From positions 1-64,000 of the forward strand of contig NZ_QVMV01000032.1 in NCBI RefSeq assembly GCF_003417465.1: a stretch of DNA of 64,000 bases, read 5' to 3'. Position numbers and translations under genes: made by a program. This document shows, piece after piece, positions 187 through 37,871 of the stretch. The stretch's first letter is position 1; each line of letters begins with the position of its first letter. The notes under the pieces were generated by a model. It saw only the letters and a program-made list of their open reading frames with translations. It had not been told where the DNA came from and ran no database searches. The stretch is from Wenzhouxiangella sp. 15190. Lineage in GTDB: Bacteria; Pseudomonadota; Gammaproteobacteria; Xanthomonadales; Wenzhouxiangellaceae.

Positions 187-510
187 TCTCCCTTCACGCG
201 TTCGCCTATCGCGCTTCGTATCGGCCCGCACGCCGCCGAACGATGGGCCTCGCACTTCCTTGCCCGGATCACGAAGCAATTTGGTGTTGATGTGATCCTG
301 ACCCCCGCTTCCCGGCGAGCGTCAATGAACCCCGGCTCTTCCCTCTCTCCCGAAAAAGTCCCCTCGCTGCCCGAAGCCCGCATGCGTCATCCGACGTAAA
401 AAGCGATAAAGCATGAGCCAAGTCAACGCAGACGGACCGCTCATTCTCTATGATCTGAAAACGATGCATACAAGGCACGATTCATTCGTTTTCAGCGAGA
501 GGAGCAGATC
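187..510. other. Intergenic region without a convincing gene
   Basis: About 320 bases lie between the tRNA and the haem protein gene. Short open frames exist on both strands but have no ribosome binding sites or recognisable sequence. No T-tailed hairpin follows the tRNA. The last bases (GAGAGGAGCAGATC before the ATG) carry the Shine-Dalgarno sequence of the next gene, so that gene's promoter must lie here, but I could not fix its boxes. Confidence 0.5.
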
Positions 511-1797
511 ATGACGAGACTGAATTCAATTATCCACCTAGCCATCTCCGTCACTCTCCTGTTGCTGCTCTCGGGGCACGTCCTGGCCATGCCGGATTTT
601 GCCCGCAAATACAACATGAGTTGCGCCGCCTGCCATGCAGCCTACCCCAAGCTCAACCAGTTCGGCGAACACTTTGCCGGCAACAATTTCAAGCTCGACA
701 ACTGGGAGTCCGGAACACTCGATACCGGTGACAAACGCTTGAAAATACCGGAGTATCCACCGCTGGCTGTCCGTGCACAGGGTTACTTCCAGGCTCGCGA
801 GGCCGGCAACATTGACCCGATCAGCGGCAAGCAAACTCAGGCCGACACCGATTTCCAGTCGCCCTACCTGATCAAGCTGCTCTCGAGCGCTCCGCTGAGC
901 GAGCACATCACCTATTACTTCTACGCCATCTTCGGAGAAAAGGGCGGCAACGGTGAAGTCATCGTCGAAGACGCCTGGTTCCGACATGACGACATCTTCG
1001 GCTCGGGCGTTGGCATGCAGCTCGGTCAGTTCCAGGTCTCGGATCTGATGTTCCCGCGCGAGACACGCCTGTCCTTCCAGGACTTCATGGCCTATCGGAT
1101 GGCGGGCATCACCTACGAGCGTGGTGTCCTTTTCGACCGGGCCGTGGGGCCACTCGATATCGGCCTGGGCTTCGTCAACGGCAACGGCATTTCGGATCAC
1201 TTCGACATCAACAGCCCCGGTTTCAACCGTGCGGACAACCTGTTCGACAACGACAATTCCAAGACGGTGTTCGGACGTGTCGGTTTCGACCTCGGGCCGG
1301 TCTCCGTCGGGCTGTTCGGACTCGATGGCACGCAGCGCGGAGCGCGCGGGCCAGCCGGGCTCGAAACCAGCGACCGCGACACCGACAAGCGTGTGGCCGG
1401 GCTGGATCTGTCGGGTTCAGTCGGGGGACGCTGGTACTGGTATACCCAGTACTTGTGGAACGAGTGGGACGGCTTTCTCGAAACCGCACCCGAACAGGAC
1501 TTCTCCTGGGATGGCGGGTTCGCGGGAGTCGACTACATCCCGAACGATCGCTGGGCCTTTTCGGCACTCTACAACTATGCCGATGCGGGAGATTTCGACA
1601 ATTCCGATACCATCTACGAAGGTATCGACATCAACAGCGTAACCCTGACGGCCTCGTACTACTTCATGCGCAACCTCAAGGGCATCATGGAGCTCAACGT
1701 CGACCTGCTCGACGACGAACCCCGGTCGGGCGACTATTACACCGGGCACTTGGAACAGGAGCACTACTTCCTGCTGGGTTTCGACGCTGCCTATTAG
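511..1797 (+). CDS. Secreted haem-c-motif protein with outer-membrane-like body
   Basis: The 428-residue product has a signal peptide (residues 1-27, cleavage after VLA). A single c-type haem motif CAACH follows at residues 38-42 in the context PDFARKYNMSCAACH. The rest is rich in alternating aromatic and polar strands (GVGMQLGQFQ, WYWYTQYLWNEW) and ends in an aromatic-rich strand, as expected for a periplasmic-facing haem tag on an outer-membrane beta-barrel. Proteins starting this way are usually annotated as cytochrome c or hypothetical; a role in electron transfer at the outer membrane is inference. A GAGGAG ribosome site precedes the ATG. The next gene follows 12 bases downstream, so the two are probably co-transcribed. 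Confidence 0.7.
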   Translation: MTRLNSIIHLAISVTLLLLLSGHVLAMPDFARKYNMSCAACHAAYPKLNQFGEHFAGNNFKLDNWESGTLDTGDKRLKIPEYPPLAVRAQGYFQAREAGNIDPISGKQTQADTDFQSPYLIKLLSSAPLSEHITYYFYAIFGEKGGNGEVIVEDAWFRHDDIFGSGVGMQLGQFQVSDLMFPRETRLSFQDFMAYRMAGITYERGVLFDRAVGPLDIGLGFVNGNGISDHFDINSPGFNRADNLFDNDNSKTVFGRVGFDLGPVSVGLFGLDGTQRGARGPAGLETSDRDTDKRVAGLDLSGSVGGRWYWYTQYLWNEWDGFLETAPEQDFSWDGGFAGVDYIPNDRWAFSALYNYADAGDFDNSDTIYEGIDINSVTLTASYYFMRNLKGIMELNVDLLDDEPRSGDYYTGHLEQEHYFLLGFDAAY

Positions 1798-26246: not shown

Positions 26247-26885
26247 TCAGTCGCCTGCCTGAATCGCGGGACGCTGGCTGACCGCACGATGCCACTGTGC
26301 CAGGTACGTGCAGTCATCGGGCAGGTGCATCTTCATGCCGCGCAAGCCGAAGTCGATGGTGACCAGGGCCGTGATGTCGGCCACGCTGAAGTCGTCACCG
26401 GCTACGAAATCATGATTCGATAACATGCCGTCCAGGTCGTTCATGAACCACTGGAATCGTTGTCGACCTCGCTCGGCCAGTTCGGGAATCTGGGCGACAG
26501 GCCGCCGACCGGGCAGTGCGTGATCCTTCATGCCCTTGACCGAATTGCGGAACCCCTCCATTACCGCGAGCATGCCGTTCATCTCGACCCAGCGGTCCCG
26601 GTCATCGACACGGGCGCATTCTTCCGGTGTACTGCCCAGCAGCGGTGGATCGGGCTGGACGGTTTCGAGATAGCGGCAGATCGCGGCGCAGGAACTCAGG
26701 CAGGTGCCGTCATCGAGCTCGAGCACCGGCAGGGTGCAGTCGGAATGAATCGCCGCGAACGCGTCGGACAGATGCTCGCCCGTGCGCATATCGACGAAAA
26801 CCTGCTCGATCTCCATGTCCTTTTCGGCCAGGAACAGGTGAACACGACGCGGGCTGGGTGCGTCCGGGAAGGTATGAAGTTTCAT
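26247..26885 (-). CDS. Glutathione S-transferase family protein
   Basis: The 212-residue protein has a thioredoxin-like N-domain (MKLHTFPDAPSPRRVHLFLAEK, TLPVLELDDGTCLSSCAAICRYLE, with the cis-proline in LPVL and the glutathione-binding SS as usual) and a helical C-domain with the N-capping VAGDDFSVADITALV motif. It conjugates or reduces substrates with glutathione in the cytoplasm; substrate unknown. GAGGAGG precedes the ATG. It lies 58 bases after the large kinase-like gene on the same strand and may share its transcript. Confidence 0.88.
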   Translation of the reverse strand: MKLHTFPDAPSPRRVHLFLAEKDMEIEQVFVDMRTGEHLSDAFAAIHSDCTLPVLELDDGTCLSSCAAICRYLETVQPDPPLLGSTPEECARVDDRDRWVEMNGMLAVMEGFRNSVKGMKDHALPGRRPVAQIPELAERGRQRFQWFMNDLDGMLSNHDFVAGDDFSVADITALVTIDFGLRGMKMHLPDDCTYLAQWHRAVSQRPAIQAGD

Positions 26886-26943: not shown

Positions 26944-29727
26944 TCAAGGCTCGACGGTATGGCTGAAGCGCAGCTTGCCGTCTTCGTGGTAGAGGCGGGC
27001 TCGCCGGCGCTCGAACAGGCCGAGAAACGCCGGTTGCATCCGCGTCTCCCCGGCACGCGACTCCTCGCGGGCGAGGCGCTCGTGTTCTTTCAGCAGGGTC
27101 GAGCGCACCAGAGCGTACAGTTCCTCCCTGCCCTTGTCGCTGGCGTGCGTGGGCGTCTCGCCCGATTCCTTCAACTCACCCAGCGCATCGAGCACGCTCG
27201 CACCCCACAGGCGCAGGTTGGTCCAGGTGGCGGTGAATTCGTTCAGGGCGCGTCGGGGGTCGGGAATGCGTTTGACCAGCTCGGCGAATTCATCGAGCTG
27301 CCGCGGCAGTTCCGCCAGGCCGAGCAGTCCGCAGTCCGGATTGAAGTGCAGACGACGCGTGTACATATAGTTCACCATCCGGTGGCGGCGGTTGGCCGCC
27401 GTGCGGCGATCCGCGCGCTCCAGGCGCGTGGCCTCGGCCCGCAAGAGGGTCTCGGCCGTTTGATAGAGTTTGGCGACCTGTTGCCGCGTGATGTCCCGGC
27501 GCCGGAAATCGCAGGCGAGATGGTCGAGCATGTCGATCACGCGCGGATCCAGCCATACAGCCAGTCCGTTGCAGTTGTCGCGGGGATGCTGAAACAGGGG
27601 CGTAATGCGACGCTTGGCGTCGATGGTTTCCGAGCGCATGCTGACGATGTCCAGCAGCCACGCGTCGCACTGCTGCATGGCCGACTCGAGATCGTGCATG
27701 AGGCGCTTGTCGTCCTTCTTGCCTTCGCGCTTGCGGCGGATCACCTCGGCGAGACGCTTTCCGACGCGTTCCTGCGCAAGCTTATGGCCCTCGAGCCGGC
27801 GCGCCTCCTCCTCCGGCGGGATACAGTCGACCAATGATCCGTAGACGACCTCCCAGGCAGTCGTGCCGCGATTGGCGATGTCCTGTTCAAGCAACAGGGC
27901 ATCGATGCGAGGCAGTTCGCCGCCCTCCTCTCTCAATACCGTCGGCTGCGTGCCTGTACTCAACCCCAGGCTGGTGAACTTCCAGTTCGAGTAGCGAATC
28001 GAGGTCGGCAAACCCTCGCCGCGGGCCAGGTTGTCGACCGCCCCCTCGCGTCCGAAGTGAATGCCCGAAAAGTCACCCTCGAAGGCCGGCTCGCCGGCGG
28101 CCAGGCTTTCGAGTTCGTGATTCAAGAGCCGATCCCAGCCTTTCTCCCTGGCCTTGAGCAATGCGTCGAAGGCCGCGCCGGGCAGGTTGAGGATGTTCTC
28201 GGGCTTGAGGTCGGTATGCGTGACGTCGTCCTCGAGCATCTGGTGACCGTTGCGGAACAGATTGGCCGCCATGCGCAGACGATGGCTGAGCGAGCACGCT
28301 TCCAGCAGGCGCTTTTGCGCCCTGTCATCGGAGAGCATGCCCTCCTCGCTCCAATCAAGCGTGGCCAGCAGCAACTTGTGCTCGTAGTCGATGGTCACCT
28401 GATGCAGGAGCGGACCGATGTCGCGTGTGAACAGCCCGCTCCAGTCGGTATCGAGCGCTTCCCGGCCCGGCCTGTCCTGCCGGGCCCGGACATTGGAACG
28501 CTCGCTGAGCAGACTCATGGCACTGGTCAGAACTTCATCGGCGAGCTCGGGATGGTCGCCGGCCTGGGCCACCAGGGCCGGTGCCTGCACGCCGTGAACA
28601 TACTGGTGTGCCTGCATCAGGCGAACCAGGTCGCCAACCGAATCGAAGGGCACGGCCTTGACCGCCACGCGTTGCCGGCCGCTCCGGTAGGCAGCCACGT
28701 TCCGGTGGCTGCCCATCACGCGCGGCGCGCCTTGTTCGTCGCGCTCGAGCTGCCAGGCCAGGCCCTTCATCACGAAGTGGTCGTTGTTGTGGAACCAGGC
28801 TTCGCATTCGCCGGGCCCGCCCCAGATACGCTCCTCGGCGTTGCGGCGCCAGGCATTGCGGCCAACGCTCTTGATCCGGTCGGCGGCGCGCGCTTCGACG
28901 AAGGCGCGAAACCGCTTCTCGAAGGCGTTGCCCGGGGCGAGGAATTGCAGCTTCCCATTGGCGCGACGAAACGCCAGGCCCTTCGAATTGCCGACCAGAA
29001 CGTTGGTGATCGATTGTGTGTAGCTGCCTTCGTCCTGCCGGTGGGGGCGAACGGACAGCCGGAGCGAGACCGGCCCTTCCGACGGCGTCCGCCGGGCGAA
29101 GTCGAAGCCCTGTATGGCTTCGCGGAAAGCCTCGCGTCCGGCGCCTGACGGCCGGCTACGGGTGACGATGTTGTGGTTGAAGTTCTGGATCGCGGCCAGG
29201 AGGTCCAGCTCGCTGGCGCCGTTTTCGGGCAGGAGGAGTTTCTGTAGCCAGTCGCCGAGCTCGCGGTTGCCGTCACTCTGTGCAGCCATCAGCGTGAACA
29301 CGCGCCGGAAATAGGCTGCGCGCAACTTCTCCTTCGTCCGAACGGCCTCGACCGTGCGAAATCGGCCCTGGAGGCAAAGCGGGTCCTCGATGCGCGCGAA
29401 CAGCCGCACATTGCCCAGGTTGGCCTGGAAGGTCGCCTCCTCGTGCGGGATGGTGTAGCGATAGGCCAGTTCGACGTAGACCACGGCCGGATTGTCGGTC
29501 GGGAAAAGCCGACGCGGGCGCGCTTCCAGGTCGGCGAAGCGCGCTGTACCCAGCGCCGAATCGTCCTGGCCGGTGCGGTGCTGGACCAGCGGAATGTGGG
29601 GAATGCGGCGGGAGAACTCGTCGACGAGTGCCATCTCCCGTCTTCGCAACCGTTGCAGCTTTGTCTCCGACAGCGCCCGATCCTTGTGGGCGGCGGAGAA
29701 CAGACGTGCAAGAAGGTGCGCGGTCAA
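26944..29727 (-). CDS. Large protein with divergent protein-kinase-like core, function unknown
   Basis: The 927-residue protein is not one I recognise. The middle carries a kinase-like series: VAVKAV (354-359, candidate beta3 lysine K357), HTDLKPENIL (504-513, catalytic loop) and DIANRGTTAWEVVYG (616-630, helix F-like). Where DFG should be, the best candidate is FTSLGLSTGT with SLG at 586-588, so the metal-binding aspartate may be missing. The spacing from lysine to catalytic loop is unusually long. Residues 1-340 and 640-927 have no known motif and are rich in Arg, Glu and Leu helices. There is no signal peptide or membrane helix. Start is TTG 29727; ATG 29634 is an alternative. Next on the strand is a GST gene. 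Confidence 0.7.
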   Translation of the reverse strand: MTAHLLARLFSAAHKDRALSETKLQRLRRREMALVDEFSRRIPHIPLVQHRTGQDDSALGTARFADLEARPRRLFPTDNPAVVYVELAYRYTIPHEEATFQANLGNVRLFARIEDPLCLQGRFRTVEAVRTKEKLRAAYFRRVFTLMAAQSDGNRELGDWLQKLLLPENGASELDLLAAIQNFNHNIVTRSRPSGAGREAFREAIQGFDFARRTPSEGPVSLRLSVRPHRQDEGSYTQSITNVLVGNSKGLAFRRANGKLQFLAPGNAFEKRFRAFVEARAADRIKSVGRNAWRRNAEERIWGGPGECEAWFHNNDHFVMKGLAWQLERDEQGAPRVMGSHRNVAAYRSGRQRVAVKAVPFDSVGDLVRLMQAHQYVHGVQAPALVAQAGDHPELADEVLTSAMSLLSERSNVRARQDRPGREALDTDWSGLFTRDIGPLLHQVTIDYEHKLLLATLDWSEEGMLSDDRAQKRLLEACSLSHRLRMAANLFRNGHQMLEDDVTHTDLKPENILNLPGAAFDALLKAREKGWDRLLNHELESLAAGEPAFEGDFSGIHFGREGAVDNLARGEGLPTSIRYSNWKFTSLGLSTGTQPTVLREEGGELPRIDALLLEQDIANRGTTAWEVVYGSLVDCIPPEEEARRLEGHKLAQERVGKRLAEVIRRKREGKKDDKRLMHDLESAMQQCDAWLLDIVSMRSETIDAKRRITPLFQHPRDNCNGLAVWLDPRVIDMLDHLACDFRRRDITRQQVAKLYQTAETLLRAEATRLERADRRTAANRRHRMVNYMYTRRLHFNPDCGLLGLAELPRQLDEFAELVKRIPDPRRALNEFTATWTNLRLWGASVLDALGELKESGETPTHASDKGREELYALVRSTLLKEHERLAREESRAGETRMQPAFLGLFERRRARLYHEDGKLRFSHTVEP

Positions 29728-30277: not shown

Positions 30278-30949
30278 ATGATCACTCTTCATCATCTCGA
30301 ACACTCGCGCTCGCAGCGCGTGCTGTGGTTGCTCGAGGAACTGGGCGTCGATTACAAAATCCGCCACTACGAGCGCAACCGCAAAACCAGCCTGGCGCCG
30401 GCGGAACTGCGCGAGATCCACCCCCTGGGCAAGTCACCGGTCATCACCGACGGCGATCGCGTGCTGGCCGAGTCAGCAACCATCATCGAATACCTTGCGC
30501 GAACCTACGGAGGTAGCGAGTGGGCCCCGCAAACCGACGACCCGGCCTACTGGGACTTCAGCTATTGGATGCACTACGCCGAAAGCTCACTGATGCCCCT
30601 GCTCCTGCTCAAGCTGGTGTTCACCAAGGTCCGCACCACCTCCCCCCTGTTCGTGCGCCCGGTCGCGGCCGGCATCGCCGGCCAGGTGGACCGGACCTTC
30701 ACCGATCCGCAAATCCGGACGCACTTCGCCTTCGTCGACGGCCACCTGGCCGAACACGAATGGTTCGCGGGAGAATCGATCACGGCGGCCGACATCCAGA
30801 TGAGTTTTCCGCTGGAGGCGGCCGTGGCGCGCGGAACGGCCGGTGAAGAATTCCCGCACGTGGTCGAGTACGTCCGGCGCTTCCAGGCCCGGGCCGCATA
30901 CCAGCGGGCGCTTGAAGCCGGCGGCACCTACGACTACGGACCGGCATGA
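30278..30949 (+). CDS. Glutathione S-transferase
   Basis: The 223-residue protein has the N-terminal thioredoxin fold (MITLHHLEHSRSQRVLWLLEELGVDYKI, HPLGKSPVITDGDRVLAESATIIEYLARTYG with cis-Pro and the ES pair) and the helical C-domain (WFAGESITAADIQMSFPLEAAV). The HLEHSRSQRVLWLLEELG start is typical of beta-proteobacterial/fungal-like GSTs. GGGA lies before the ATG. It is divergent from the DUF2007 gene and followed after 68 bases by gamma-glutamyltransferase on the same strand, so both may act in glutathione turnover. Confidence 0.92.
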   Translation: MITLHHLEHSRSQRVLWLLEELGVDYKIRHYERNRKTSLAPAELREIHPLGKSPVITDGDRVLAESATIIEYLARTYGGSEWAPQTDDPAYWDFSYWMHYAESSLMPLLLLKLVFTKVRTTSPLFVRPVAAGIAGQVDRTFTDPQIRTHFAFVDGHLAEHEWFAGESITAADIQMSFPLEAAVARGTAGEEFPHVVEYVRRFQARAAYQRALEAGGTYDYGPA

Positions 30950-31017
30950 AGCCGTGTGTACCGGGCCGTGTCTTTCGAGCTTGGTATGATCAGTCCTTTA
31001 CTCAATCGGAGAAGCCC

Positions 31018-32916
31018 ATGCCCACCGATCGCCCCACCCCGTTTCTCGCACTCACACTTGCCGCGCTGATTCTCGCCCTGACCGGTTTGCCGGCATTGGC
31101 CCAGGACACCGCCAAGCCCGTCCTGCACGGCAAGCACTGGGTCGCCGTGACCGGCAAGCCGCTGGGCGCGACCGCCGGAGCCAGGATGTTCCACAAAGGC
31201 GGCAACGCCGTCGACGCCGCCGCCGCGATGCTGGCGGCCACGGCCACCATGTGGGACACGCTCGGTTGGGGCGGCGAGACGCAGGCGCTGATCTACAACC
31301 CGGAAACCGGCGAGGTCATCGGCGTCAACGGCGTCGGCGTCGCACCCACCGGCGCAACGCCCGAGTTCTTCCGCGAGCAGGGCATGCAGTACCCACCCGA
31401 GTACGGCCCGCTGGCCGCGGTCACGCCGGGCACGCCGGGCAGCCTGATGACGATGGTCGCCGAATACGGCGAACTCAGCCTGGCCGACGTACTCGCGCCC
31501 GCCATCGAGATGGCCGAGGGCTACCCGATCGAGGCCGCCCAGGCCGACAACATGGAACGCCGGCGCGGGGTGATCGAACAGTGGCCGTCATCCAGGGAAG
31601 TCTTCCTGCCGCATTACGACCCGGACGAGCCGGATCAGCGCGCCGCACCGCGTGCGGGCGAGGTCTTCATTCAGGAAGACCTGGCCAACACGCTCAGGAA
31701 ACTGGTCGAGAGCGAACGCCGGGCCCTGGAAGAGGGCAAGAGCCGCAAGGAAGCCATCTATGCCGCCTACGACCGCTTCTACACAGGCGATATCGCGCGG
31801 GAAATCGTGCGTGCCACACGCGAGGCCGGCGGCCTGTTCACCCTGGAAGACCTGGCCGACTGGGAGGTCAAGCTCGAAGAACCGGTAACCACCGACTACC
31901 GCGGCATCGACGTCTACAAGCTCACGACCTGGACGCAGGGCCCGGTCATGCTGCAGGCGCTCAACATTCTCGAAGGTTTCGACCTCGAGGCGATGGGCTA
32001 CAACTCCAAGCGCTACATCCACACGCTCTACCAGGCCATGAACCTGGCCTTCGCCGACCGAGATTTCTACTACGGAGACCCCTACACGCCGCCGGAAGAG
32101 CCGGTTGAAGGGCTGCTCTCGAAGGAGTACGCGGCCGAGCGCCGCAAACTGATCCCGGAGGATCACAACCTCACCGACTACCTCCCCGGCAATCCGTATG
32201 AGTTCCAGGCCGGCGAAAACCCCTACGAGGAACTTCGCCAGAACTGGCAGATCGTGCCGCCCGAGGCCGAAGCCGAGGGCGAGGAAGGCTTCCAGCAGGC
32301 CCATCTCATGGACTTCGAGGAAGGCTTCCGCGCCGGCACCACCGCCATCCAGGCCGCCGATGCCGACGGCTGGGTCGTTTCCGTCACCCCGTCCGGCGGC
32401 TGGGTACCGGCTTTCATCGCGGGGGAATCGGGCATTGGCCTGAGCCAGCGCATGCAAAGCTTCGTACTCGACGAAGCGCTCAACCCCTACAACGTGGTCG
32501 CCCCCGGCAAGCGCCCCCGTGTGACGCTAACGCCCTCGATGGCCTTGAAAGACGGCAAGCCGCTGATGGCCTTTTCCGTCCAGGGCGGCGATACGCAGGA
32601 CCAGAACCTGCTGCAGTTCTTTCTCAACATGGTCGAGTGGGACATGAACGTGCAGCAGGCCGCCGAGGGCAGGCAGAACATCATGAGCTACCAGATGCAA
32701 AGCTCCTTCGGCGCCCATCAGGCCGAGCCGGGCCGCATCGAAGTGCCGCGCTCGCTCTCGCCCTACACCACCGACCAACTGCGCAAGATGGGCTACGACG
32801 TCGACCTGGTCGATCGCGTCTACAACCCGACGCAGGCGATCTGGTTCGACTGGGAGAACGGCACCATGCAGGGCGGCGCCAGCGACTACGGCGAGGACTA
32901 CGGCATCGCCTGGTAG
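31018..32916 (+). CDS. ggt: Gamma-glutamyltransferase family protein
   Basis: The 632-residue preprotein has a signal peptide (to LPALAQ) and the GGT landmarks GATAGARMFHKGGNAVDAAAA, LTPGTPG-like loop and the self-cleavage region. The nucleophile Thr is T441 in FRAGTTAIQAADADGWVVS. The canonical TTH is TTA here, and the glycine-rich substrate loop reads SVQGGD in place of the E. coli GSPGGS. It is therefore a divergent Ntn-hydrolase of the GGT family, which may prefer other gamma-glutamyl compounds, and should mature in the periplasm. ATG 31018 is chosen because the signal peptide starts there. A strong hairpin terminator follows. Confidence 0.9.
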   Translation: MPTDRPTPFLALTLAALILALTGLPALAQDTAKPVLHGKHWVAVTGKPLGATAGARMFHKGGNAVDAAAAMLAATATMWDTLGWGGETQALIYNPETGEVIGVNGVGVAPTGATPEFFREQGMQYPPEYGPLAAVTPGTPGSLMTMVAEYGELSLADVLAPAIEMAEGYPIEAAQADNMERRRGVIEQWPSSREVFLPHYDPDEPDQRAAPRAGEVFIQEDLANTLRKLVESERRALEEGKSRKEAIYAAYDRFYTGDIAREIVRATREAGGLFTLEDLADWEVKLEEPVTTDYRGIDVYKLTTWTQGPVMLQALNILEGFDLEAMGYNSKRYIHTLYQAMNLAFADRDFYYGDPYTPPEEPVEGLLSKEYAAERRKLIPEDHNLTDYLPGNPYEFQAGENPYEELRQNWQIVPPEAEAEGEEGFQQAHLMDFEEGFRAGTTAIQAADADGWVVSVTPSGGWVPAFIAGESGIGLSQRMQSFVLDEALNPYNVVAPGKRPRVTLTPSMALKDGKPLMAFSVQGGDTQDQNLLQFFLNMVEWDMNVQQAAEGRQNIMSYQMQSSFGAHQAEPGRIEVPRSLSPYTTDQLRKMGYDVDLVDRVYNPTQAIWFDWENGTMQGGASDYGEDYGIAW

Positions 32917-34848: not shown

Positions 34849-35096
34849 CCAGGTATGCCCAAGAATCCACGCTTGGTGAAACCCTTGGCTGCGGCTCGAT
34901 AGCCTCATGGCGAACGCCTGGGGTAAATATGAACTCGGATATCGACCTTATGCAAACTCTGGTCGTATAAAGTCAGCGCGGTCCAACAACCCGAGCAGTA
35001 TGGCACTCGAGAAAACCAGGAGCGAGTTTTCGGCAGCCTGTGTAGCATAATGGTCACCCGAATGCTGATCGACAGCGCTCCAACAAAGACAAGGCG

Positions 35097-37871
35097 ATGA
35101 GCGAAGATCGACGCGACGATGACCGAACGCACCTCGACGAGGACGCCACCCGCGCAGTGGGAGAGAACGCCGGCGAAACCGGAGCGAACGGCGCCGACGA
35201 CGAATTGAAGCTTCCGGGCTACCGCGTTATCCAGAAACTCGGCAGCGGCGGCATGGGCCAGGTCTTTCTCGCGCAGCAGTACGAGCCGGTCGAGCGACAG
35301 GTTGCGATCAAGCTGATCCAGAAGAGAATCCGCAGCGCGACCAGCGAGGTGCGCTTCCTGGTCGAACGCCAGGCCATGGCACAGATGAACCATCCGGCCA
35401 TCGCCCAGATCTTCGAGGCCGGCACAAACCCCGACGGCTATCCCTACTTCGCCATGGAGTACGTACCGGGGCAGACGCTGACCGAGTTCTGCACGAGACA
35501 CCGCCTGGGATTGCGCGAACGCCTGGAGCTGTTCGTGCGCATCTGTCAGGGCGTATCGCACGCCCACCAAAAGGGCCTGGTCCACCGCGACCTCAAGCCC
35601 GGCAACATTCTGGTCACGCGCGTCGACGACGAACCGCGACCGAAGATCATCGATTTCGGCATCGCCGTCACCGAAAGCTCGGCCAGCGAGCGCCGCCACC
35701 AGGGCACGGCCGGCACGCCACACTACATGAGCCCCGAGCTGTTCGACGAGAACATCGGCATCGACATGCGTGCCGACGTCTATTCGCTGGGCGTGATCTT
35801 GTGTGAGCTGATCACCGATTGCCGGCCGTATCCCTCGCGACTGTTCGAGAAAACCGACACGCGCATCATCCGCGAACAACTGGCCAAACTGTATCCACCG
35901 CCGGCGCCTTCGCAGCTTCTCGAGTCGGACGCCGCTGATATCGCGCGCGCCGCCGAGCGACGCGGCACTACACCTCGACGCCTCGTGCACCAGCTCACCG
36001 GCGACCTGGACGCCATCACGCTCAAGGCCATCGCCCACGACCGCGAGCAGCGCTATGCCAGCGTGCCGGAACTGGCCGACGACATCCGCCGCTATCTCGA
36101 CCGGCAGCCGGTACGCGCGGTCGATGGCGGGCGCGGGTACTTCGCGCGGCGTTTCGTGCAGCGCAATGCCCTGACGGTTACTGCCGCCACCCTGGTGGCC
36201 GTCTCGCTGGCCGCCGGCCTCACACTGGCGATCCGCGGCATGACCGAAGCGCGCGAACAGCAACAAATCGCCGAGGCTCGCTCGGCGGAGCTGGAACGCA
36301 TGGTCGACTTCCAGCAGTCCATGCTCGGCGACCTGCAGCCGCGCGAGCTGGGCCAGAGTTTCGTCAAGCGACTCAGGGAACAGCACGCGCAGTCCTTCGC
36401 CCATAATGCCGACGAGGAAACGATTGAAGCCGGTATCGAAGCGTTCGAACTGGCCGTCGGGCAGATCAACCCCACCGACCTGGCGCAGGACCTGCTCGAC
36501 GAGTTCATGATGCAGCGCGCCATCGACAACATCAAAACCGACTTCGCCGACGAGCCGCGTCTGCAGGCCGAGCTGTTTGAAACCGTGCGCGACATCTACT
36601 TCAACGCCGGCATGGTGGACAACGCCCTGCCGCTGGCCGAGCGGGTCGTCGAACTGCGCCTCGAGGCCCTCGGCCCCGCCGCCACCGGCACACTGGAGGC
36701 GCGCCGACAGTACTATCGCATGCTCTCGCGCCAGGCCGATTACGAGGCCGCACGCGTCCAACTCGACGCCATCCTGGACAACCTCGACCCCGACGACCCC
36801 GACCAGGTGGGCGTGCGCCACGCCGCCTGGGACAGCCTGGCCAACCACCTGGTCCGGACCGGCGAGAACGAGCGGGCGCTGGAAATCGCGCAGGAGAACA
36901 TCGAACGCGCCGAAGAGGAACTGGGGCCGCACCACGCCGACACCGTGCGCGCGATAAACACCCTGGGCTACGTCCATGCCCTCTCGGGGCGCATCGAACA
37001 ATCCCTGCCCCACTTCCGCACCGCCGTCGAGCGAGCGCGCGGCCACTTCGAACCTTACGAGGACTCCTACTACAGCGCCCAGCTCAACGTTGGCGCGGCC
37101 CTGAGCTACCTGGGCCGGTCCGAAGAAGCCCTGGAAGTTCAGCGCGAGGTCTACGACATCCTGGCCGGCCACTACGGCCGCCGCCACGACTCCACCCTGA
37201 AGGTCATGAACAACATCGCCGTCACGCTGATGGACCTCGACCGCTTCGACGAAGCTACCGCCATGATGCGCGACATCCTGAGACTGACCCGCGAAGCCTG
37301 GGGCCCGCACAGCCCGCTCACGCTCAGTTCCATGCAGAACCTGGCCGATCTTTACCTGCGTACCGACCGGCCGCAACAGGCCCTGGAACAGATGGAACCG
37401 GTTGTCGTGTGGCGCGAACGGCTTTTCGGCGAAGATCACGGCGACGTGCTCAGCGCCCGCTACCTGGCCGCCACCGCCGCCCTGGACGCCAACCAACCCG
37501 AAAAGGCCCTGGCGCACCTCCAGCCGGCACTGGACATCCGCCGCGAACAGCTCGACCCGGACGACCCGACGCTACTGGAAACCCTGCGCCTGGCCGCCGA
37601 CATCCATCGCCAGGCCGGCGACGTACAGGCCGAAACGGCGCACCGGCAGGAAGAAGTAAATCAATTGATCAATGGCGACGCCGATCCCGGTGCGGATTCC
37701 CTGGAATCGGCCATCCGGTTGGTCGAACTCTACAAGAATCTTGGCGAACCCGAACGTATCGAGCCGCTGGCTCAGGATATCGAAGGCTGGCTCGAAGACG
37801 GTGGGCCGAAACTGGATGAACTACGCAAGCGCTTTGGCCGCGTCACTGTCACCGAATCAGCGCCGGAATAG
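35097..37871 (+). CDS. Serine/threonine protein kinase with membrane helix and TPR repeats
   Basis: The 924-residue protein has an acidic N-tail and a Hanks-type kinase at residues 42-330: LGSGGMGQVF P-loop, K72 in VAIKLI, HRDLKPGN (163-170), DFGIA (186-190), GTPHYMSPE and DVYSLGVIL. All catalytic residues are present. A membrane helix (LTVTAATLVAVSLAAGLTLAI) near residue 355 is followed by some 500 residues of TPR-like repeats facing the periplasm (for example NTLGYVHALSGRIEQSLPHF, NNIAVTLMDLDRFDEA, QNLADLYLRTDRPQQALEQ). The TPRs probably bind a protein or peptide that controls the kinase. AAGG precedes the ATG. It is transcribed alone. Confidence 0.93.
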   Translation: MSEDRRDDDRTHLDEDATRAVGENAGETGANGADDELKLPGYRVIQKLGSGGMGQVFLAQQYEPVERQVAIKLIQKRIRSATSEVRFLVERQAMAQMNHPAIAQIFEAGTNPDGYPYFAMEYVPGQTLTEFCTRHRLGLRERLELFVRICQGVSHAHQKGLVHRDLKPGNILVTRVDDEPRPKIIDFGIAVTESSASERRHQGTAGTPHYMSPELFDENIGIDMRADVYSLGVILCELITDCRPYPSRLFEKTDTRIIREQLAKLYPPPAPSQLLESDAADIARAAERRGTTPRRLVHQLTGDLDAITLKAIAHDREQRYASVPELADDIRRYLDRQPVRAVDGGRGYFARRFVQRNALTVTAATLVAVSLAAGLTLAIRGMTEAREQQQIAEARSAELERMVDFQQSMLGDLQPRELGQSFVKRLREQHAQSFAHNADEETIEAGIEAFELAVGQINPTDLAQDLLDEFMMQRAIDNIKTDFADEPRLQAELFETVRDIYFNAGMVDNALPLAERVVELRLEALGPAATGTLEARRQYYRMLSRQADYEAARVQLDAILDNLDPDDPDQVGVRHAAWDSLANHLVRTGENERALEIAQENIERAEEELGPHHADTVRAINTLGYVHALSGRIEQSLPHFRTAVERARGHFEPYEDSYYSAQLNVGAALSYLGRSEEALEVQREVYDILAGHYGRRHDSTLKVMNNIAVTLMDLDRFDEATAMMRDILRLTREAWGPHSPLTLSSMQNLADLYLRTDRPQQALEQMEPVVVWRERLFGEDHGDVLSARYLAATAALDANQPEKALAHLQPALDIRREQLDPDDPTLLETLRLAADIHRQAGDVQAETAHRQEEVNQLINGDADPGADSLESAIRLVELYKNLGEPERIEPLAQDIEGWLEDGGPKLDELRKRFGRVTVTESAPE

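Follow-up and report, generated by a model that had tools for sequence, protein, structure and literature searches.

A Putative, Clade-Specific Protein-Kinase-like Family with a Conserved Catalytic Loop in Wenzhouxiangella

The 64,000-nucleotide stretch of Wenzhouxiangella sp. 15190 DNA analysed here (the window) carries a gene whose 927-aa product, judged by sequence comparisons, represents a divergent, clade-specific, protein-kinase-like family. The host is a salt-lake bacterium, and the bacteria carrying the family are already rich in Ser/Thr kinases. We lean towards regarding the protein as a soluble enzyme in three parts, the middle third of which is a strongly diverged, catalytic protein-kinase-like domain. 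The family would form a so far undescribed branch of the protein-kinase-like superfamily, one that defines its clade and escapes current family libraries. The features discussed below are as follows (window coordinates):

26944..29727, minus strand: whole gene, 927 aa, TTG start, stop included; relatives align over the full length
28822..29727, minus strand: N-terminal region, residues 1–302, strands and helices, no known family
27808..28821, minus strand: kinase-like core, residues 303–640
28657..28668, minus strand: VAVK, residues 354–357, with the candidate beta-3 lysine K357; invariant
28438..28533, minus strand: hypervariable loop, residues 399–430; 1 of 32 columns invariant
28189..28218, minus strand: catalytic loop HTDLKPENIL, residues 504–513 (H504, D506, K508, N511)
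28063..28080, minus strand: EGDFSG, residues 550–555; E550, G551, D552, S554 and G555 invariant in 11/11 members
28030..28038, minus strand: VDN, residues 564–566, with D565 as the second candidate metal Asp; D565 invariant
27964..27972, minus strand: SLG, residues 586–588, proposed earlier as a broken DFG; first residue S, A or G
27838..27882, minus strand: helix-F-like motif DIANRGTTAWEVVYG, residues 616–630; D616 and G621 invariant
26947..27807, minus strand: C-terminal region, residues 641–927, predicted helical hairpin (~638–708) followed by helices, no known family

The Gene and Its Distribution

The 927-residue open reading frame that the earlier note had placed at 26944–29727 was recovered, on the minus strand. 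An in-frame stop stands three codons 5' of the TTG start and the first 30 residues are kept in the relatives, which places the start at this TTG or close to it. The family alignment comprised 11 members, nine of them complete or almost so and two truncated by contig ends; the relatives show 52–78% identity to the window protein. Codon positions of the window gene differed unequally from those of its relatives, by 0.45 (third), 0.18 (first) and 0.12 (second) in the case of L008. Since third positions differ far more than the other two, the protein is under purifying selection, and the gene is real. No membrane segment was found in the protein (maximum 19-residue hydropathy of 0.8), which is most likely soluble.

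According to the family scan, 11 of 43 genomes carry the gene, every one of them Wenzhouxiangella, and matches in the genome-collection scan also belonged to this genus only. Profile scans of 369 genomes from the class, 398 from the order and 398 from the phylum found no further relatives, and searching viral contigs, plasmids and phages revealed none. Weak order-level matches in G555, G570 and G759 were rejected as relatives; these resemble outer-membrane efflux proteins in which the N-terminus matches by chance. An rpoB tree was constructed for 26 Wenzhouxiangella genomes, without carriers G023 and G025 and non-carriers G033 and G038, for which there was no rpoB sequence. The nine carriers in the tree were separated from the rest by a branch with 100/100 support, without a non-carrier among them, and the gene was found in 9/9 sampled members of this clade. 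A single origin followed by strict retention is the simplest reading of this distribution. As for the family libraries, the protein passed no Pfam, NCBIfam, PADLOC or PHROG cut-off, and the whole protein gave no NCBIfam match of any kind. The suggestion that the family is undescribed thus agrees with the library searches and with the confinement of the relatives, in the collections searched, to one Wenzhouxiangella clade.

Kinship of the Core to Protein Kinases

A profile built from 38 ordinary protein kinases (ePKs) of the same bacterial family recovered all 11 members, with E values of 1.5e-4 to 6e-3, while no reversed-copy control fell below E 0.49. Comparison of the core with kinases in hhalign gave a probability of 94 and a score of 59, against a maximum of 28 among 100 column-permuted controls. 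The signal was lost once residues 502–514 were masked, so the formal evidence of kinship is confined to approximately residues 449–514, that is, the hinge, helices D–E and the catalytic loop. Searching PDB sequences with the core profile, all 35 matches up to E 10 were protein kinases, the best being CLK4 (E 0.007). Pkinase was the most-matched Pfam family, found with the core (residues 303–640) of 10 of 11 members, with a best E of 0.0018, which still fails to reach the cut-off; the core of the window protein scored 11.1 bits against PF00069, short of the curated cut-off of 31.7.

HTDLKPENIL is unmistakable as a catalytic loop and goes beyond chance. The loop profile block scored +15.3 at HTDLKPENIL against −12.1 for the next window, and none of 300 column permutations equalled it. 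With 0.00 occurrences expected, the window has two copies of the back-translated HxDLKPxN pattern, one here and the other in a normal kinase. Conservation along the protein is highest at residues 500–516 (88% invariant), and HTDLKPEN is invariant in the 11 members apart from one P-to-A change. The ePK beta-3 block scored best at VAVK; the p value there was 0.23 on its own, and the chance of VAVK lying upstream was 0.023 within the 300–480 segment. The helix-F pattern D-x4-G-x3-[YWF]-E-x3-G is present in 11/11 members, with a shuffling chance of 0.00025 within residues 514–640. Residues K357, H504, D506, K508, N511, D552, D565, D616 and G621 are invariant in all 11 members, despite identity down to 52%.

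The motif order read in the earlier note, VAVK (354–357), HTDLKPENIL (504–513) and DIANRG (616–621), was confirmed, the three motifs being essentially invariant in 11 members, and the note's description of the protein as kinase-like is borne out, at the level of sequence, by the profile matches together with this order. A kinase-like domain is very probably present, and the comparisons mark the core as a very divergent relative of ordinary Ser/Thr protein kinases. With PknB-type Ser/Thr kinases (PF00069) it shares HxDLKPxN, the VAVK lysine, the hinge–helix E region and the helix-F Asp and Gly. The best PDB sequence matches were the eukaryotic CLK/SRPK kinases. The CLK loop likewise reads HTDLKPENIL, and in the alignments with CLK4 and CLK1 the stretch from loop to DFG is longer than in bacterial ePKs. 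CLK/SRPK kinases retain a normal DFG, whereas none is recognisable here. Since the similarity spans only ~70 residues around the catalytic loop, it does not show a special kinship with CLK/SRPK.

Missing Hallmarks and the DFG Question

In contrast to PknB-type kinases, the protein falls below the Pfam cut-off and has no recognisable DFG or APE, no GxGxxG and no conserved alpha-C Glu. The gap between the lysine and the catalytic loop was estimated earlier at ~150 residues; 149 were counted up to the catalytic Asp, compared with 90–96 in the 38 ordinary kinases. The hypervariable loop (residues 399–430) accounts for part of this length. In place of GxGxxG stands MGSHRNVA, in which G339, H341, N343, V344 and A345 are invariant. 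No conserved Glu was found 10–30 residues past K357 in the 11 members, the only conserved acidic positions there being E/D362 and D366. The APE motif was not found, residue 600 being E, K, V or Q across the family, and the APE block from ePKs gave no significant window. As several defining features were looked for and not found, the family is kept out of PF00069, although its mode of action is most likely that of a kinase.

The earlier note had read the DFG equivalent as SLG. This assignment was rejected as unsupported: the first position is S, A or G and never Asp, none of the alignment methods tried put DFG there, and SLG lies 80 residues from the catalytic Asp, compared with 16–21 for the DFG Asp in the 38 ePKs. 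The DFG block from real kinases found no significant window in the protein, and global alignments disagreed, putting DFG at residues that are not conserved, for example 528 or 536. In addition, D616 was considered as the DFG Asp, being the best DFG-block window (510–614 segment), but the extended helix-F motif fits better there. Only two Asp residues, D552 (in EGDxSG) and D565, are invariant in the segment separating the catalytic loop from helix F. The former is most likely the better candidate, because it comes first, lies in a densely invariant motif and has a DxS precedent in a CP1 protein. A member of the CP1 pseudokinase family has DFS at the DFG position (PMC12599244 Table 1), which resembles the candidate D552-F-S (PMC12599244). 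AlphaFold predicted two helices (518–529 and 536–544) between the catalytic loop and EGDxSG, with moderate confidence at best; these would explain the extra length. No DFG, broken or intact, was located with confidence. The further step from a broken DFG to a pseudokinase is not supported, SLG being unbacked and K357, H504, D506, K508, N511 and the two candidate metal Asp residues being invariant.

Predicted Structure and Flanking Regions

The full-length protein and the core were modelled using AlphaFold, and both models were of low confidence (mean pLDDT 52 and 47). Fold searches with these models gave nothing significant. In Foldseek, the weak matches of the low-confidence core model were mostly kinases, none of them significant. 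The highest Z values in the fold searches fell on the predicted helical hairpin, and any pair of long helices matches such a hairpin. The predicted order up to helix E (strand–strand–long helix–strand–strand–helix–helix) corresponds to a kinase N-lobe and the start of a C-lobe; the rest of the C-lobe would presumably follow the same fold.

No HipA or Fic structure was among the 50 PDB rows listed in the fold searches, which proves nothing with models of such low confidence. The HipA family models of Pfam and NCBIfam gave no match, an absence that does not exclude the fold, and the Fic motif HPFx(D/E)GNGR is missing, with no HPF anywhere in the 927 residues.

The two flanks of ~300 residues were described earlier as lacking a known domain, and neither had a significant Pfam match; residues 1–302 and 641–927, alone or joined, gave no significant match to any family model. 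The N-terminal region also had no significant PDB match. Its pLDDT was mostly 60–91 for residues 10–150 and 200–280, and the prediction there, of fair confidence, shows two units rich in strands, each with a long helix after it; no sequence signal of an internal duplication was found in this region. The C-terminal profile weakly matched G014:C32:304339-304545 (20 bits, E 4e-4), within a 511-aa frame of a genome without the gene, possibly by chance.

Proposed Function and Alternative Explanations

The protein is, by a slight preference, a catalytically active phosphotransferase; because most key catalytic residues are kept, an unusual working enzyme is likelier than a dead one. In such an enzyme, the beta-3 K357 would position the ATP phosphates, and D506 of HTDLKPENIL would serve as the catalytic base, aided by K508 and N511. 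A displaced Asp, most likely D552 of EGDxSG, would bind metal in the role of DFG, and D616 would open helix F, bracing the catalytic loop. As the loop reads HTD and not HRD (non-RD), activity would not depend on phosphorylation of the activation loop. Signal sensing or substrate choice would fall to the two flanks. If the protein is active, the family shows how widely kinase motifs other than the catalytic loop can diverge.

A pseudokinase, in which the kinase fold would be a nucleotide-sensing or structural scaffold between the flanks with no phosphate transfer, is unlikely, though the missing alpha-C Glu, GxGxxG and APE Glu and the failure of the profile to recognise a DFG agree with it. Bacterial pseudokinase families with partial motif loss are known (PMC12599244). 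Like the CP1 and DYD families, the protein is kinase-like with altered motifs, and DYD pseudokinases also have no alpha-C Glu (PMC12599244). However, pseudokinases are defined by divergence in the Lys, HRD or DFG motifs (PMC12599244), whereas the Lys and HRD Asp positions are invariant here; K357, D506, K508 and N511, which pseudokinases usually lose, are kept in 11/11 members, and the stretch around the loop (500–516) is the most conserved of all. If inactive, the protein would be a pseudokinase with an intact HxD loop, which would be unusual. Switched chemistry, such as AMP transfer (as in SelO) or glutamylation (as in SidJ), has been described for other bacterial kinase-fold proteins (PMC12599244), and ordinary kinases have nothing that corresponds to EGDxSGIxFGREG and GEGLPTS, two family-specific invariant motifs close to where the active site is expected. 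Such chemistry is nevertheless rather improbable here, as SelO and SidJ do not have the standard HxDLKPxN loop present in this protein (PMC12599244 Table 1), and no SelO-type Pfam match was obtained.

It is also conceivable, with a low probability, that the protein is unrelated to kinases and has no kinase fold, HTDLKPENIL and VAVK being products of chance or convergence: the profile signal hinges on one motif region and the structure predictions are poor. Against this, the profile alignment spans the hinge, helix E and the catalytic loop, the helix-F motif comes next in order with the low shuffling chance given above, and both the predicted element order up to helix E and the weak fold matches are kinase-like. 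A more far-reaching proposal, which we regard as doubtful, is that of a new kinase-fold family born once in one Wenzhouxiangella clade; it would have kept the Lys, HxD-K-N and helix F, dispensed with the alpha-C Glu, GxGxxG and DFG, and come to use EGDxSG...FGREG for metal, possibly for a transfer other than of phosphate.

Genomic Neighbourhood and Other Kinases

The genes next to the family differ between carriers, so the gene is probably independent of a fixed operon. In 6 of 10 loci a glutathione S-transferase gene follows downstream, either directly or after one intervening gene, and other genes take this position in the remaining four. A defence-system or operon reading was discarded, as PADLOC gave a chance hit only and the neighbours vary. 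In the window, the gene is flanked by two glutathione S-transferases and a gamma-glutamyltranspeptidase (26247–26885, minus strand; 30278–32916, plus strand).

A canonical PknB-type Ser/Thr kinase (Pkinase, 3.4e-43) is encoded at 35097–37871 on the plus strand; it carries TPR repeats, in contrast to the two flanks of the 927-aa protein. An 870-codon open frame antisense to it (34905–37517, minus strand) is probably a by-product of high GC content. Nine kinases above the cut-off were found in the genome of the window, and as many as 34 matches are listed for single genomes elsewhere in Wenzhouxiangella. The window's genome also gave further Pkinase matches below threshold, at G000:C30:4809-4958, C25:59662-60126, C19:40324-40446, C26:231954-232070 and C54:54936-55184.
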